A DNA stretch of 38,286 bases from Marinicella sp. (lineage in GTDB: Bacteria; Pseudomonadota; Gammaproteobacteria; Xanthomonadales; Marinicellaceae): positions 1-38,286 of the forward strand of contig JANQRW010000011.1 in NCBI GenBank assembly GCA_028284365.1, in the 5' to 3' direction. Made by a program: the position numbers and the translations under genes. The notes beneath the pieces are model-generated. The model made no database searches. It was given only the letters and a program-made list of their open reading frames with translations, and had not been told where the DNA came from. This document shows positions 10,139 through 23,689 of the stretch, in pieces; position 1 is the stretch's first letter; every line of letters starts with the position of its first letter.

Positions 10139-10573
10139 TCACTTATACTTTTTTCCATTCAACTCTATCCAGCCTCCTGCACGCCTTTTTTGTGGATCAT
10201 GGTGTGTCCAATGCACCACACCACCACGATCATTCCATTCATACTCACCTTTGATGATAACTACATCATCGACTTTAACTGGCACGCGTGGGGCTAAATC
10301 AATATTATGTGCGATCAATACCGTATGCCCTCTGTTTTCTACAATAAATTTTTGGTGTCGTGAACCTTGGTTATCATCGGCTAATATGCGTACAACATCT
10401 GCCTCAAACTTCACCAAAACATCATTGGCCTGTGCTGCATAAAGCGCACTTAAATCATCACTGTTGGCAGCACCATTATGTTGAAAATATGCTGCAATTG
10501 TTGCGACCAGTAAAAACAAAGCGCCTTGAAAAAGGCGCTTTAAACTGAATTTTTTAGGGCTGTTCTCAAGCAT
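10139..10573 (-). CDS. DUF3465 family protein
   Basis: A 144-residue protein with one N-terminal membrane or signal segment (about 15-31, FQGALFLLVATIAAYF). The rest is a DUF3465 domain, recognised from the conserved run LADDNQGSRHQKFIV, LLIAHN-like VLIAHNIDLAPR, and GEYEWNDRGGVVHWTHHDP. Function is unknown. The compact beta-rich domain is probably periplasmic and could be an OB-like fold. It overlaps the glutaredoxin-fusion gene by 8 bases, so it is the third gene of a gyrB-glutaredoxin-DUF3465 run. Confidence 0.85.
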   Translation of the reverse strand: MLENSPKKFSLKRLFQGALFLLVATIAAYFQHNGAANSDDLSALYAAQANDVLVKFEADVVRILADDNQGSRHQKFIVENRGHTVLIAHNIDLAPRVPVKVDDVVIIKGEYEWNDRGGVVHWTHHDPQKRRAGGWIELNGKKYK

Positions 10574-11465
10574 TCCAGGCGTTATAGCCTCCGCTTAAAT
10601 TAAACACTTTAGTGTACCCTTTTTTGCGGAAAAACTCTGCTGCTGACATGGATGATTGTCCTATCTGACACACAAATACCAACGGGGTATCTTTATCCAT
10701 GGCCTCAATACTTTCAATCGCTGCCTTATCCAATCGCACTGCATAATCAACCGTTCCCTCAGCTATTTTATCTGCCGACCTGACATCATAGATTCTAGGA
10801 TTTTCTACATCTGTGGCAAACCAATCTTGCAGTTCTGCCACTGATAAGTCCTGCACTGCGGGCGGTTCATTGGGGTTTTTAATGCGCAAACCTGAACCTT
10901 GAAGCTCATCAACCCAACTGATTTCGATACCATCAGATCGCTTCGCTGTACCGATATCCATATATACTTTCAAATCTCCAACATCAGCTATCACTTCATA
11001 GCCTTTAGGTTTTTCAAGGCTGAAACGGGTATTAAATTCGTCATCTATTGACAAAAACAATTGGTGATCGCCCATGTCTTTCAACCCTTCTTTGATGTGG
11101 CTTAAAGCATCATCAGTAATGCTTATTTCAGGTGGGGTTCGGTCTGGTTGTTGCAAATTGAGCAACTCATGCAGTTCACCCGTGTTAAACATTTCTGAAA
11201 CAATGTCATTACCGCCTATCAACTCTTTATTCACATACAGTTGCGGAATGGTAGGCCATTGACCATAGGTTTTGATACCCTCCCGAATCTCAGGATCTTC
11301 CAACACATTAAAAGAGGCAAAATCATCACCTATCAAATCTTTCAATATCTTAACGGTGTTACTGGAAAAACCACACATCGGTGTTTGTGGGGTACCTTTC
11401 ATGAATAAAAACACAGGATGATCATCCAGCATTGATTCTATTCTTTGGGTTGTTTGATCGGTCAT
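10566..11465 (-). CDS. Monothiol glutaredoxin / rhodanese fusion
   Basis: A 299-residue three-part protein. Residues 1-107 are a Grx4-type monothiol glutaredoxin with the CGFS active site at 31-34 and WPTIPQLYV, features of [2Fe-2S] carriers. Residues about 112-200 (ISITDDALSHIKEGL to SGLRIKNPN) resemble the HesB/IscA A-type scaffold fold, but this part contains no cysteine, so it cannot hold a cluster in the usual way. Residues about 205-299 are a rhodanese domain (RIYDVRSADKIAEG) with active cysteine C266 in VCQIGQSS. It is cytosolic and probably acts in Fe-S or sulfur transfer. It lies 13 bases after gyrB. Confidence 0.88.
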   Translation of the reverse strand: MTDQTTQRIESMLDDHPVFLFMKGTPQTPMCGFSSNTVKILKDLIGDDFASFNVLEDPEIREGIKTYGQWPTIPQLYVNKELIGGNDIVSEMFNTGELHELLNLQQPDRTPPEISITDDALSHIKEGLKDMGDHQLFLSIDDEFNTRFSLEKPKGYEVIADVGDLKVYMDIGTAKRSDGIEISWVDELQGSGLRIKNPNEPPAVQDLSVAELQDWFATDVENPRIYDVRSADKIAEGTVDYAVRLDKAAIESIEAMDKDTPLVFVCQIGQSSMSAAEFFRKKGYTKVFNLSGGYNAWNA

Positions 11466-11478
11466 TTTTATTCTCTGA

Positions 11479-13869
<2,391 letters not shown>

Positions 13870-13953: not shown

Positions 13954-15036
13954 TTAAAGAACAACGGGTTTTATCTGATTTTGTTTCACGTGAAACACCG
14001 TTGCTTTTTTTAAAGTTGGTGTGAGCTTATCTTTTTCAACCGTTGTTAAGAAAATTTGATTGTGGCTGTTTTGGATAAACTCACTGAACACTGCTGTTTT
14101 AGTGGCATCCAACTCTGCGTCCATATCATCCAAACACAGGATGGGATGAACCCCTAAATACTGAGTTAACAGTTCAATATAACTTAGGTAAAATATGCTG
14201 GAGATTATTTTCTTTTGCCCCCTTGATAAATTCTCATGGGCGGCTTGTTGTTTAACAGTACTTTTAATGTCCATCTTATGCGTGCCAGAATTTAAGTTAC
14301 CATACAGTAAATTTTTTTCTCTCTCTGACTCTAATTGTTCAACCAAGGTCTTATCCTTTCCCCAACCCTGACGAAAAGAAACAACAAAAGAGTCAAGATC
14401 AGGCATAAAAAGTTTGATTTTATGTTGTACCGAAAGTTTAAGTTGTTGAAAAATTTCTTCACGCATAAGTGTTAATTGTGAAGCAAATTTCACGTACTGA
14501 TCTTCCCAGTAGTCAAGGTCATTAAGCTTTTTTTCTTTGTATAAAGCATTCAAGTGTTTATGACAGCGGCTTACTTTTGACCACGTTTCCAAGTAGCTAG
14601 GTTTCACGTGAAACACCAACCAATCAAAAAAAGATCGTCTGTATTGTGGCGGTTTATCCAGGAACAAGTATGAATCAGGATCTATTGAAACCACTGGTAA
14701 AACATGCGCAACATCAGACTGGGTTTTGATGTGTTGTTGGTTGAGTTTAACTTTTTTTTTCATCAACTTGGATAAAGTAGCACCCAATTCATGTGGGTTA
14801 TTCTCTTGGTCTACAAAAGCCGCAAATAATGCCAAGCCATCACACCCATGTTTAACCAGGTTTTTATTGCGTTTCGAACGAAAAGATTTTCCAGTAGATA
14901 AATAATAAATGGCCTCCAAAACAGATGTCTTACCAGAACCATTATCACCATAAAAAATATTAATGCGTTGATCGAAGCTTAATTCAATATAATCATAACA
15001 ACGAAAGTTACTGATTTTTAATTGTTTGATGTGCAC
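13954..15036 (-). CDS. recF: DNA replication and repair protein RecF
   Basis: A 360-residue SMC-like ATPase that helps load RecA at gaps. Walker A is GDNGSGKTS (30-38), the ABC signature is NLSRGQKKI, and Walker B is LCLDDMDAELD. The start is GTG at 15036, before HIKQLKISNFRCY. Two parS-like palindromes lie inside the gene, both encoding VFHVK (residues 141-145 and 347-351). The first coincides with the FHV segment common in RecF proteins. It lies 29 bases after dnaN. Confidence 0.97.
   Translation of the reverse strand: MHIKQLKISNFRCYDYIELSFDQRINIFYGDNGSGKTSVLEAIYYLSTGKSFRSKRNKNLVKHGCDGLALFAAFVDQENNPHELGATLSKLMKKKVKLNQQHIKTQSDVAHVLPVVSIDPDSYLFLDKPPQYRRSFFDWLVFHVKPSYLETWSKVSRCHKHLNALYKEKKLNDLDYWEDQYVKFASQLTLMREEIFQQLKLSVQHKIKLFMPDLDSFVVSFRQGWGKDKTLVEQLESEREKNLLYGNLNSGTHKMDIKSTVKQQAAHENLSRGQKKIISSIFYLSYIELLTQYLGVHPILCLDDMDAELDATKTAVFSEFIQNSHNQIFLTTVEKDKLTPTLKKATVFHVKQNQIKPVVL
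13982..13997. promoter_or_regulatory. parS centromere-like site 1 (perfect)
   Basis: TGTTTCACGTGAAACA is a perfect 16-bp palindrome identical to the bacterial chromosomal parS consensus bound by ParB. It lies in the last 15 codons of recF (VFHVK, residues 347-351), about 2.3 kb from the candidate oriC. The site itself is direct observation; ParB binding is inferred from the known motif. Confidence 0.8.
14600..14615. promoter_or_regulatory. parS centromere-like site 2 (one mismatch)
   Basis: GGTTTCACGTGAAACA differs from the parS consensus only at the first base, and the inner 14 bases are a perfect palindrome. It lies in recF codons for VFHVK (residues 141-145), 618 bases from site 1 and about 1.6 kb from the candidate oriC. 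Confidence 0.75.
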
Positions 15037-15065: not shown

Positions 15066-16166
15066 CTAAATTCTTAATGGCATCACCACCAAACGACAAT
15101 CCAAGCGATCAGGGTGTTTAATCAAACAACTGGATAAAGCTTCTTTGAAACTGAATTGAATTTCATTATCAGTTATGGCTTGGGTAGCATCGAGAATATA
15201 GTTAACATTAAACGCTGTTTCAATGTCATCAATATCAGTTTCAATGGCTATCACATCTTCTGCCTGTTCCTGATCAGGGTTGTGACCAACAATTTCGAGC
15301 TTGTTAGGTGTTATTTTAAACTTAACACCTTTGTACTGTTCGTTGGATAAAATAGCAACACGATGTAATGCATTACGTAAGGCTTCTCTGTCAGCAGTAA
15401 AACTGTTTTCCATATTCAGAGGAATCACCGATTCATAATCTGGGAATTTACCATCAATCAGTTTAGACGTCATACTGATTCCCTCGATTTCAATTTTGAT
15501 GTGATTAACCCCCATGTTTATGGTGATGGCTTGATCCAAATCACGAATCATTTTTTGCAACTCCAAGACACCTTTCCTTGGGACCAAGACTTGTTTGTTC
15601 AAACCACTGTTATTCACATAATCGCATTCAGCCAAAGCCAAGCGATGACCATCAGCCGAAACACAACGGATCTTATTATTCAAGACTTCAAACAGTAAAC
15701 CATTTAGGAAGTAACGCACATCCTGAACGGCCATACAAAATACTGTTTGTTTCAACATACGTTGTAAATCAGATGCACCCATGGTTACAGGTTGATACGA
15801 CTCCATATCATCAATTAATGGAAACTCTTGAGCAGGCAAAGTACTTAAACTAAAACGACTGTCACCAGAAGTAATAAGACATTTTCCAGATTCATAAGAG
15901 AAAGTAATGATTGAACCATCAGCTAATGCTTTACAAATATCTAGAAATTTATGTGCAGGAACTGTAACCTCGCCGCCTGATTGAGGATCAACTGTACATT
16001 CAGAACGCATCTCAACATCCAGATCACTGGTGGTAAGTAACAGCGTATCACCATCTAATTTCAACAACACGTTACTGAGTACTGGTAAAGTGCCTTTCTT
16101 TTCGACTACCCCGCATATTTGATTAAGGGGGGCTAATAAACTTTCTCTTTGGATGTTAAATAACAT
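15066..16166 (-). CDS. dnaN: DNA polymerase III beta sliding clamp
   Basis: A 366-residue clamp that tethers DNA polymerase to the template, made of three similar clamp domains. Recognisable parts are the N-terminus (FNIQRESLLAPLNQICGVVEKK), DLDVEMRSE, the ADGHRLALAE segment of the second domain, and the C-terminus PDRLDCRLVVMPLRI, where the last residues form the hydrophobic partner-binding region. Length equals the family norm. It lies between dnaA and recF; the 173-base gap to dnaA is the oriC candidate. Confidence 0.98.
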   Translation of the reverse strand: MLFNIQRESLLAPLNQICGVVEKKGTLPVLSNVLLKLDGDTLLLTTSDLDVEMRSECTVDPQSGGEVTVPAHKFLDICKALADGSIITFSYESGKCLITSGDSRFSLSTLPAQEFPLIDDMESYQPVTMGASDLQRMLKQTVFCMAVQDVRYFLNGLLFEVLNNKIRCVSADGHRLALAECDYVNNSGLNKQVLVPRKGVLELQKMIRDLDQAITINMGVNHIKIEIEGISMTSKLIDGKFPDYESVIPLNMENSFTADREALRNALHRVAILSNEQYKGVKFKITPNKLEIVGHNPDQEQAEDVIAIETDIDDIETAFNVNYILDATQAITDNEIQFSFKEALSSCLIKHPDRLDCRLVVMPLRI

Positions 16167-16272: not shown

Positions 16273-16281
16273 TGTGGATAA
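16273..16281 (-). promoter_or_regulatory. DnaA box, exact consensus
   Basis: TTATCCACA on the minus strand (TGTGGATAA on the plus strand), the strongest DnaA-binding nonamer. Confidence 0.75.
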
Positions 16282-16307
16282 CTTGTTAATAAAAAAACTA
16301 ACTTTTT

Positions 16308-16316
16308 TTACCCACA
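16308..16316 (+). promoter_or_regulatory. DnaA box, one mismatch
   Basis: TTACCCACA differs from TTATCCACA at the fourth base, and lies 2 bases before the next exact box. Confidence 0.5.
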
Positions 16317-16318
16317 TC

Positions 16319-16327
16319 TTATCCACA
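16319..16327 (+). promoter_or_regulatory. DnaA box, exact consensus
   Basis: TTATCCACA on the plus strand, 13 bases beyond the dnaA stop and facing the box at 16273-16281. Confidence 0.75.
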
Positions 16328-16339
16328 ACCTTTACACAA

Positions 16340-17635
16340 CTATTCAGTTAGTTTATTCACAATCTTCTGTCTGTCCTCATCAAGATCACTGTTTTCGGAT
16401 AATAAATCCTTAAATTTACGATACGCGTGCAAAACTGTGGTGTGATCCCTACCCCCAAAAAGTTCGCCAATCTCAGGGTAGCTTTTGTCAGTTAGTTCCT
16501 TTGCCAAAAACATGGCCAACTGACGCGGTCTGACAATTGAACGCTTTCTGCTCTTACCCAATAGTTCTGATAATTTCACATTGTAATATTGTGCAGTGGC
16601 TTTTTGGATATTTTCTACTGAAACAATTTGATGGTTGACTTTAAACAGCTCTTTGAGGATTTGTTTGGTGTATTCCAGATCGATGCTTTTACCAGTGAAA
16701 AAGGCATTGGCTTTAAGGGTGCTCAACGCGCCTTCTAACTCACGGATGTTAGAGTTCAATTGTTTGGCAATGTAAAAAGCCACATCATCAGGAATAGAAA
16801 AACCAAACTGCATGGCTTTTTCTTTCAAAATCGCTACACGGGTTTCATAATCAGGTGGGTCAATGGGTACCACTATGCCCCACCCCAGGCGAGATTTAAG
16901 TCGTGACTCCAAGCCAGAAACTTCCTTCGGATAACGATCACAGGTAATAATTACACGCTTTTGACCTTCCAGTAAATAATTAAAAGTGTGAAAAAACTCT
17001 TCCTGTGTGCGCTCCTTGCGGGCAAAAAACTGGATGTCATCAATTAACAAAGTGGTTACAGAGCGGTATTTATGCTTAAAAGCCTCCATGGATTTTTGTT
17101 GAATGGCTTTAACCATCTCATTGACATAAATTTCCGAATGGAGATAACACACGACTTCATCAGGGTTGTGCTTGATGATTTCATTGCCAATGGCATGCAT
17201 CAAATGTGTTTTACCTAAACCAGTGCTACCGTAAAGCAGTAAAGGGTTGAACTCTGGGTTTGGGGTTTGTGCAGTTTGTAGTGCAGCGGCCAAAGCAATG
17301 GTATTTGAACGTCCCTCGATGAAGTTTTCAAAAGAAAAACGTTCATCAAGGTTTGATGGGATGCTGATTTTTGTTTCAGGAGCAGCTTCGTTGGTTGTAG
17401 CTACTGATGATTTCTGTAAAGCCAAACTGGCGGTAAAAGGTTCCCCGAAAACTTCTTTTATGGCTGCTTGAATCAGGGAATAATAGTTGGATTTGACTTT
17501 ATTAAGCACGACATCATTGGCTGCGAACAGATTGATTCGTTGCTCACTGACATTCACTTCCAGTGGTTGTATCCACAACAAAATATCGTCTTTGGGTATT
17601 TCTGCTTCCAATCTTTTAAGACAATGTTCCCACAT
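16340..17635 (-). CDS. dnaA: Chromosomal replication initiator DnaA
   Basis: With the ATG at 17635 the protein has 431 residues and begins MWEHCLKRLEAEIP, the standard DnaA domain I start. The AAA+ domain has Walker A GSTGLGKTH (about 135-143) and Walker B LLIDDIQFF (about 193-201). The DNA-binding domain IV ends with RPRQLAMFLAKEL and the DnaA signature FGGRDHTTVLHAYRK. The frame is open up to 17758, adding 41 residues, but those are unrelated to DnaA. An extended -10 promoter lies inside that extension, so the shorter start is favoured. It is the first gene of dnaA-dnaN-recF. Confidence 0.97.
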   Translation of the reverse strand: MWEHCLKRLEAEIPKDDILLWIQPLEVNVSEQRINLFAANDVVLNKVKSNYYSLIQAAIKEVFGEPFTASLALQKSSVATTNEAAPETKISIPSNLDERFSFENFIEGRSNTIALAAALQTAQTPNPEFNPLLLYGSTGLGKTHLMHAIGNEIIKHNPDEVVCYLHSEIYVNEMVKAIQQKSMEAFKHKYRSVTTLLIDDIQFFARKERTQEEFFHTFNYLLEGQKRVIITCDRYPKEVSGLESRLKSRLGWGIVVPIDPPDYETRVAILKEKAMQFGFSIPDDVAFYIAKQLNSNIRELEGALSTLKANAFFTGKSIDLEYTKQILKELFKVNHQIVSVENIQKATAQYYNVKLSELLGKSRKRSIVRPRQLAMFLAKELTDKSYPEIGELFGGRDHTTVLHAYRKFKDLLSENSDLDEDRQKIVNKLTE

Positions 17636-17723
17636 AGATAGATTCTGGTTAAACCTGTATCCGTATTGCTGGATAAAGCAGAGGTGATACAGGTGATTTT
17701 TAAAGGTTTCAAACGAACGCACC

Positions 17724-17732
17724 AGTATAGCA
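17724..17732 (-). promoter_or_regulatory. Putative dnaA promoter (extended -10)
   Basis: On the minus strand TGCTATACT forms an extended -10 (TGn plus TATACT), with no good -35. The predicted start near 17717 gives a leader of about 80 bases before the ATG at 17635. Confidence 0.45.
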
Positions 17733-17868
17733 AGAAAAGCTGAAAATGCCCACAGCAAAGTGTTGTTTTAGATAGGTTTTAAACGATTGAGAGGTAATGA
17801 GCTTGAACTGTTGATGATCTACCAAATAATGCAATGTACAGACACCACCAATACAAATCAAAAAAGGC

Positions 17869-23021: not shown

Positions 23022-23689
23022 AAAATGCACGAATCCTGGTGGTAGAAGATCAAGAAGATTTGGCCAGCTTGTTAAAAGACTATCTACAACAGGAACAGTG
23101 GCTGGTTGACTTGATTCATCATGGCAATGAAGTTGAGGACTTCATTCAACAACACATGGTTGATGTGGTTTTATTGGATGTGATGTTGCCAGGTAAAAAT
23201 GGTATGGATATATGTCGTGATATACGCAAAACTTCTGATGTGCCCATTATCATGACAACAGCAAGAGTAGACGAAATTGATCGTATTTTGGGTTTGGAAA
23301 TAGGGGCCAATGACTATGTTTGTAAACCCTACAGCCCAAGAGAGCTGGTGGCCAGGGTCAAAGTGTGGTTGCGCCAAAAAGCCAAACCTTGTTTAGCAGC
23401 GATCATTGAACTTGATAATGAAGCTTTAAAAGTCAGCTGTGGTGACAATCAAGCAGAGTTAACGCTGGTAGAGTGCCGCTTATTAGAAAAAATGATGTCC
23501 TTTCCCAGTCGGGTGTTTTCTCGAAACCAGCTGATGGATGCTGTTTATGATGATGGTCGTGTGGTGTCTGATCGCACCATTGACAGCCATGTGAAAAAGT
23601 TGCGGGCCAAGTTGAAGAAAATAAAGCCAGATCATGAGCTTATACACGCAATTTATGGTTGTGGGTATAAGTACGAAGAGTCTCGGTGA
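23018..23689 (+). CDS. OmpR-family response regulator, BaeR-like
   Basis: A 223-residue two-domain regulator. The receiver domain (about 1-120) has the acidic pair in VVEDQEDL, the phospho-acceptor aspartate in VVLLDVMLPGKNG, the TTA switch and the KPYSPREL lysine. The C-terminal winged helix (about 130-223) has SRNQLMDAVY, DRTIDSHVKKLRAKL and IYGCGYKYE. It overlaps the kinase start-to-stop by ATGA, so it is the cognate partner. A direct repeat suited to an OmpR-type dimer lies directly after its stop, before the Spy-like gene. Confidence 0.94.
   Translation: MKNARILVVEDQEDLASLLKDYLQQEQWLVDLIHHGNEVEDFIQQHMVDVVLLDVMLPGKNGMDICRDIRKTSDVPIIMTTARVDEIDRILGLEIGANDYVCKPYSPRELVARVKVWLRQKAKPCLAAIIELDNEALKVSCGDNQAELTLVECRLLEKMMSFPSRVFSRNQLMDAVYDDGRVVSDRTIDSHVKKLRAKLKKIKPDHELIHAIYGCGYKYEESR

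Follow-up and report, generated by a model that had tools for sequence, protein, structure and literature searches.

Two 16-bp palindromes lying within recF of a Marinicella-like bacterium can be read with high confidence as parS, the nucleation sites of a chromosomal ParABS system, set in the reading frame of the gene and ancestral to, or very old in, the Gammaproteobacteria. They were found in a stretch of 38,286 nucleotides (hereafter, the window), where recF occupies positions 13954-15036 of the minus strand (TIGR00611, E 6.7e-92). Site 1, the C-terminal site (13982-13997, no strand assigned), is TGTTTCACGTGAAACA and matches the 16-bp inverted repeat TGTTYCACGTGRAACA perfectly. Site 2, the internal site (14600-14615, no strand assigned), has one mismatch and reads GGTTTCACGTGAAACA as written in the window and TGTTTCACGTGAAACC on the recF strand. 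The two are 618 bp apart, start to start, and both their positions and the quality of the matches agree with an earlier note on this DNA. Read on the recF strand, site 1 encodes V-FHV-K-Q and ends 8 codons short of the stop, and site 2 encodes V-FHV-K-P within the segment DWLVFHVKP; as the earlier note had also claimed, VFHVK is written with identical codons (GTG-TTT-CAC-GTG-AAA) at both. The same note had placed one site where RecF proteins often have FHV. This holds for the site that it named, but not the limitation to one site, since gammaproteobacterial RecF has FHV at both places.

The gene order around the sites is gyrB, recF, dnaN, and dnaA, all on the minus strand, followed by yidC and mnmE on the plus strand. 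The downstream neighbor of recF is gyrB (11479-13860, minus; NF011501, E 0), the upstream neighbor is dnaN (15066-16166, minus; TIGR00663, E 4.5e-97), and dnaA lies at 16340-17758 (minus; TIGR00362, E 3.1e-160). A candidate oriC (16273-16361, no strand assigned) is marked by DnaA boxes in the dnaN-dnaA spacer and the extreme end of dnaA, of which two are exact (16273-16281, minus; 16319-16327, plus) and two have one mismatch (16308-16316 and 16353-16361). The minimum of the cumulative GC skew falls in the 15-17 kb interval of the window, the same interval as the boxes. The sites are approximately 1.7 and 2.3 kb from the exact DnaA boxes, which bears out their supposed closeness to the candidate origin. 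Elsewhere in the window, a gene at 10566-11465 (minus) encodes a single chain of 299 aa that combines Grx4 monothiol glutaredoxin and rhodanese-like domains and also weakly matches an iron-sulphur assembly accessory domain.

Statistics on the window by itself are weak and merely suggestive, as two matches at ≤3 mismatches were reached in 5 of 100 shuffled windows, and the case must therefore rest on the genome and its relatives. We searched the whole genome, which comprises 91 contigs totaling 3,112,870 bases and is 99.84% complete, and the two recF sites were the sole matches at ≤2 mismatches, so that no additional copy lies far from the origin. A backwards control pattern gave 3 places in the same genome at the same tolerance. 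Given this, it is not the number of matches that stands out but their closeness (0 and 1 mismatch), their 618-bp spacing, and their place near the origin.

The genome encodes the proteins that such sites call for. As the earlier note had stated, neither parA nor parB is in the window; both were located elsewhere, so a chromosomal parB is not absent. The sole parB-family gene over the cut-off lies at C19:29400-29933 (1.2e-57) and is adjoined by parA (C19:30304-30825, 1.5e-66), after which comes rsmG. The order parB-parA-rsmG is a usual chromosomal arrangement. The ParB carries the motif GERRWRAA, which we take to be the CTP-binding motif. By analogy with the known ParABS system, this ParB would bind each 16-bp site, close as a CTP-dependent clamp, and slide onto dnaN-recF-gyrB; ParA would then move the ParB-parS complex, so that newly copied origins separate, and SMC may also be loaded at the sites. 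ParB-parS loads SMC in other bacteria, and a full SMC gene is present on contig C2 (1018 bits). The sites might thus be chiefly loading sites for the SMC condensin, with ParA-driven segregation secondary, which is compatible with the reading as a centromere. That parA adjoins parB argues against loading as the chief role, and we consider this emphasis rather unlikely.

At the base-contact positions defined in the Caulobacter ParB structure (PMC7383237), the ParB of the window genome is of the parS type at residues G170, R171, S172, R173, N178, G201, and R204 (Caulobacter numbering), with H in place of the Caulobacter Q at contact position 162. Noc, a ParB paralogue, has its own palindromic site, NBS, and is described in the same source as having Q173 and R201 (PMC7383237). 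As the present protein has R173 and G201, we rejected the sites as Noc binding sites.

The pair of sites was then sought across the class in a sample of one genome per family (143 genomes, with recF over the cut-off in 120). In total, 117 recF genes were counted. They do not include G033, a member of the same order whose gene was not fetched, or G214 and G236, whose split genes were treated apart. At ≤2 mismatches from TGTTYCACGTGRAACA, both sites were present in 92 of the 117 genes, the internal site alone in 11, the C-terminal site alone in 8, and neither in 6, so that 111 genes had at least one canonical site. In 87 of the 92 two-site genes, both sites were within one mismatch. Both were also kept in the two recF genes that are split into two pieces (G214 and G236) by frameshifts or assembly errors.

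Genes that miss a canonical site often have another one close by. A replacement within recF or ≤200 nt after it was found in 10 of the 25 genes missing a canonical site, compared with 4 of the 92 with both (Fisher 2e-5), and the replacements occupy all three frames or positions after the stop. For example, the C-terminal place is empty in G190 and a perfect site starts 4 bases past the stop codon, the C-terminal site of G267 is in another frame (CSTWNI), a site of G279 (GSTWNI), also in another frame, lies 23 bases past the internal place, and the second site of G253 is in the third frame (NVSRET). The second site lies elsewhere within recF in G291, just past the gene end in G280, G227, G255, and G159, and approximately 60 bases after the gene in G172.

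Furthermore, sites occur in genomes without recF. Loss of the gene looks common in the class, with recF below the cut-off in 23 of the 143 family representatives. In G258, only remnants of recF with stops are visible, at C1:2683-3410. We searched 22 of these 23 genomes (G167 was left out) and found a site at ≤1 mismatch in 13; the other nine had none at that tolerance, and three of these (G181, G239, and G265) had no parB match while six had one. In eight of the 22 (G161, G177, G206, G225, G259, G262, G272, and G282), parS lies in the spacer bordered by dnaN and gyrB, which indicates that the sites can outlive the gene. Four of them (G161, G225, G259, and G272) have two sites 26-38 bases apart. 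Two more recF-less genomes (G162 and G266) have a site beside gyrB with no dnaN in view. A pair of sites was also seen at 2782 and 2820 in G231, and in G266 (L249, 1286-1817) 12-13 parS-like copies, one every 43 bp, form a tandem array just before gyrB.

These patterns suggest that a set of approximately two sites would be kept, with a lost one re-founded nearby, and that the sites would often remain in the dnaN-gyrB spacer after loss of recF. They bear on the possibility that the sites do bind ParB but were selected for control of the dnaN-recF-gyrB operon and not for segregation. An excess of ParB is reported to lower expression around parS1-4 in P. aeruginosa, including recF-gyrB (PMC5521831), as such control would have it. 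At the native ParB level, however, genes by parS1 and parS2 are described in that report as not being affected in the way of those by parS3 and parS4 (PMC5521831), and any single one of parS1-4 is reported to be enough for segregation (PMC4368675). Turnover that keeps approximately two sites, whatever their exact place, is also more in keeping with a centromere than with an operator, and we regard selection for operon control as improbable.

The codons give strong evidence of selection at the level of the DNA. In the recF frame the site reads nTG-TTY-CAC-GTG-RAA-Cnn, and the DNA element thus prescribes the peptide [VML]FHV[KE][HPQR] at the internal and C-terminal places. Expected codon use was computed from the rest of the same recF genes. 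Among the 99 class genes with internal FHV[EK], H was encoded by CAC in 98 (40.8 expected), V by GTG in 98 (29.7 expected), and E/K by GAA or AAA in all 99 (53.7 expected); as the genomes are related, such counts are not independent trials, and no formal probability is attached to them. The internal site is preceded by V, L, M, A, T, or S, whose codon ends in TG in 95 genes and in CG in the other 4. It is followed by P (41), H (42), Q (13), or R (3), whose codon begins with C in 99 of 99; these following residues are chemically unlike, yet the AAC of parS demands a C-first codon for each. The C-terminal site (n = 96) has CAC in 94, GTG in 95, RAA in 96, and a C-first codon in 96, the following residue being Q (36), H (54), or R (6). 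In addition, the third base of the F codon and the first base of the E/K codon co-vary as the palindrome would have it, TTT with AAA and TTC with GAA (Fisher 4e-6 for the internal and 8e-4 for the C-terminal site). When 346 columns of the alignment were scanned, the 13 lowest third-base entropies belonged to 5 W/M columns, 7 parS columns, and one M-rich column (876), which probably corresponds to the residue preceding the C-terminal site.

A similar picture was obtained within the family. Eighty-two columns were degenerate with an amino acid common to at least 24 of 28 family recF genes, and the five with the strongest codon bias (V144, V141, V350, H143, and H349) are all parS codons, the sixth being the start codon. 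Synonymous codons are thus not free to vary at the sites. The earlier proposal of a dual-use constraint on protein and codon choice gains support from the near-invariant codons across the class, the counts of sites, and the replacements in other frames.

Could the palindromes nevertheless be a by-product of RecF protein conservation, with FHV[KE] needed by the protein and codon preference mimicking parS? RecF without parS does keep the F and parts of the motif, such as CFHNEP in E. coli and the C-terminal F.V in several other bacteria. On the other hand, CAC, GTG, and RAA are near-exceptionless against approximately 41%, 30%, and 54% expected from the same genes, P, H, Q, and R interchange while the codon always starts with C, and sites occur in other frames, after the stop, and between dnaN and gyrB in genomes without recF. 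The 51 recF genes from outside the class (44 of 113 genomes and 7 named records) had no site at ≤3 mismatches, either in the gene or in the 150 bases after it. A by-product of protein conservation is therefore very improbable. As F at both places, FH.E internally, and F.V at the C-terminus occur partly in recF without parS, the protein does constrain some letters. From these comparisons, parS seems to have settled on peptides already fitting part of its frame, and we infer that the DNA accounts for the codons, for the residues on either side, and for much of the H. The [VML]FHV[KE][HPQR] peptides of RecF would thus largely reflect centromere DNA.

The sites also erode where ParABS has been lost. 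Proteus is not known to have par genes. Enterobacteriaceae and Pasteurellaceae are reported to be without chromosomal par genes (PMC3909081). In E. coli K-12, Klebsiella, Enterobacter, Proteus, and Pasteurella, recF has lost the internal site (6-8 mismatches), and its C-terminal place is at 2-6 mismatches. Three further genomes (G300, G393, and G324) have neither parB over the cut-off nor recF sites. Accordingly, none of these eight recF genes has a site at ≤1 mismatch, and at 2 mismatches there is one, the C-terminal relic of Klebsiella. E. coli K-12 recF (L259) has a three-mismatch C-terminal relic, TGTTTACCGTGGAAAA, encoding MFTVEK, apparently left by an ancestor with ParABS.

There are exceptions on both sides. 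Acinetobacter baumannii keeps the internal site only and Aeromonas caviae the C-terminal site only; in the latter (L262), one-mismatch parS-like sites were also seen at 23574, 28030, and 30426, ≤10 kb after the C-terminal site of recF. Of the 114 class genomes with parB over the cut-off, five (G196, G198, G202, G207, and G217) have no recF site, and G424 likewise has parB and no recF site. Sites are present elsewhere in the genome in G202 and G207; the genome search at ≤1 mismatch gave none in G196 and G198, and the stretch of G198 that was fetched (L358) held no ParB reading frame. The parB model also matches the E. coli control genome and thus picks up other ParB-like proteins, so a parB match is no proof of a chromosomal ParABS. 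Conversely, G279 and G280 have sites without a parB match, and in G187 both sites are accompanied by a weak one; as these assemblies (G279, G280, and G187) are 90, 95, and 81% complete, the absence or weakness of parB may be due to missing sequence.

Changes in the sites appear to be accompanied by changes in ParB. Unusual changes common to the two recF sites were seen in three genomes, with a CACATG center in G173, CATATG in G246, and GTA for GTG in G180. The ParB of each is deviant at base-contact positions, with L171 and K204 in G173, S170 in G246, and P172 and K204 in G180. This amounts to 3 of 3 genomes with concerted changes against 1 of 17 others (G203, with N172; the window ParB is among the 17), in a small sample that was picked after the sites had been seen. 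In G153, the two sites are changed differently and ParB is ordinary.

The pair is also conserved among close relatives. Marinicella are the closest named relatives, and recF of M. marina is 69% identical to that of the window. A match at ≤1 mismatch was found in 30 of 33 family genomes, with 67 forward matches in sum against 0 for the backwards control, and 53 of the 67 fall in recF by its coordinates. In all 28 family recF genes that could be read across both places, both sites are present in the same codon register at ≤2 mismatches from TGTTTCACGTGAAACA; G012 and G019 are among the 28, though absent from the one-mismatch search result. Two further members of the order likewise have both sites in register, and identity to the window RecF among genes with both sites in register goes down to 33%. 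Three more genomes (G016, G022, and G023) have recF partial or split over contigs and are outside the 28; G016 shows both sites and the other two one each. Within the order, both sites with invariant CAC, GTG, and RAA were present in 56 of 56 recF genes fetched, a set drawn from 118 listed genomes mostly by top E-value and hence biased to close relatives.

G018, which has the same family placement, lacks recF and was kept outside the recF counts. It carries perfect parS at C1:3767731 and 3769727, one of them at the mnmE-mnmG boundary and both ≤4 kb from its parB; this genome does not look like the other members of the family, and its placement may be wrong. Members of the sister genus g3 have a third perfect site (G021:C1:12825, G026:C17:10271, and G027:C71:70232) approximately 2 kb beyond the end of recF; its position suggests that it probably falls within gyrB or close to it.

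Chance palindromes, for which the shuffled windows and the backwards control in the window genome had left some room, are refuted, since both sites are conserved in all 28 family genes and forward matches exceed backwards ones in the 33 genomes; the probability of chance is negligible. An RNA hairpin or terminator was rejected as well, as the palindrome is perfect without a loop and also occurs in other frames and in spacers.

Taken together, it is likely that the centromere of Gammaproteobacteria took up its place in recF before most of the class had radiated and that its DNA letters, rather than protein function, explain most of the class-wide RecF motifs. On this reading, the pair would also outlive the gene, be re-founded in any frame or after the stop once a copy decays, and co-vary with the base-contact residues of ParB, and a fossil of it would be seen in RecF of bacteria that lack ParABS, as in MFTVEK of E. 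coli. The centromeric parS pair would be a clear and testable case in which chromosome-maintenance DNA has for a very long time dictated amino acids in a conserved protein unrelated to it. The case also warns that conserved residues, such as the FHV motifs of RecF, need not signal protein function. The RecF signature could be used to predict ParABS centromeres from protein sequence in Gammaproteobacteria, and the natural losses, shifts, and replacements could be used to ask how many parS a chromosome needs and why they lie beside gyrB. On the practical side, deletion or recoding of recF in species with ParABS may remove centromere sites.

The occurrence of parS within recF has a precedent in P. 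aeruginosa, which the earlier note did not mention. There, parS1 (TGTTCCACGTGGAACC) and parS2 (TGTTCCACGTGGAACA) belong to the four parS closest to oriC (PMC4368675), are reported to be located in recF (PMC5521831, PMC3909081), and lie approximately 4 kb from oriC (PMC3909081). As given in PMC4368675, parS1 ends in AACC and parS2 is a perfect palindrome, a pair of end letters that recurs in the internal and C-terminal sites of the window. By this likeness, parS1 and parS2 very probably occupy the same two recF positions as the sites of the window, and would then fall on the same codons. The positions are shared by gammaproteobacterial recF genes of the class sample. There are also differences. 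P. aeruginosa is described as having a further two sites close to oriC, plus six that are weaker (PMC4368675), whereas the Marinicella-like genome has the recF pair alone at ≤2 mismatches, and the half-site is TTCCAC in the former and TTTCAC in the latter.

Coding sequences are reported to hold 9 of 10 parS in P. aeruginosa, and parS of Xanthomonas citri is placed at the 3' end of dnaN (PMC4368675, PMC3937727). In Caulobacter, transposon-borne extra parS are reported to be favored around recF-gyrB, with the native cluster elsewhere (PMC5815017). We found no account of class-wide conservation in recF in the open-access literature; the survey of Livny et al. 2007, which is outside that scope, may mention recF sites of other species. 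Frame-independent turnover, survival without recF, and a RecF peptide signature were likewise not found in the open-access parS literature. Like chromosomal parS generally, as described in PMC4368675 and PMC3937727, the present sites are 16-bp inverted repeats near oriC in a genome with parA and parB. Unlike parS generally, they lie in the same gene, in a conserved codon register, and with a conserved peptide in most of the sampled families of the class, and the site thus leaves a recognizable mark in a protein family.
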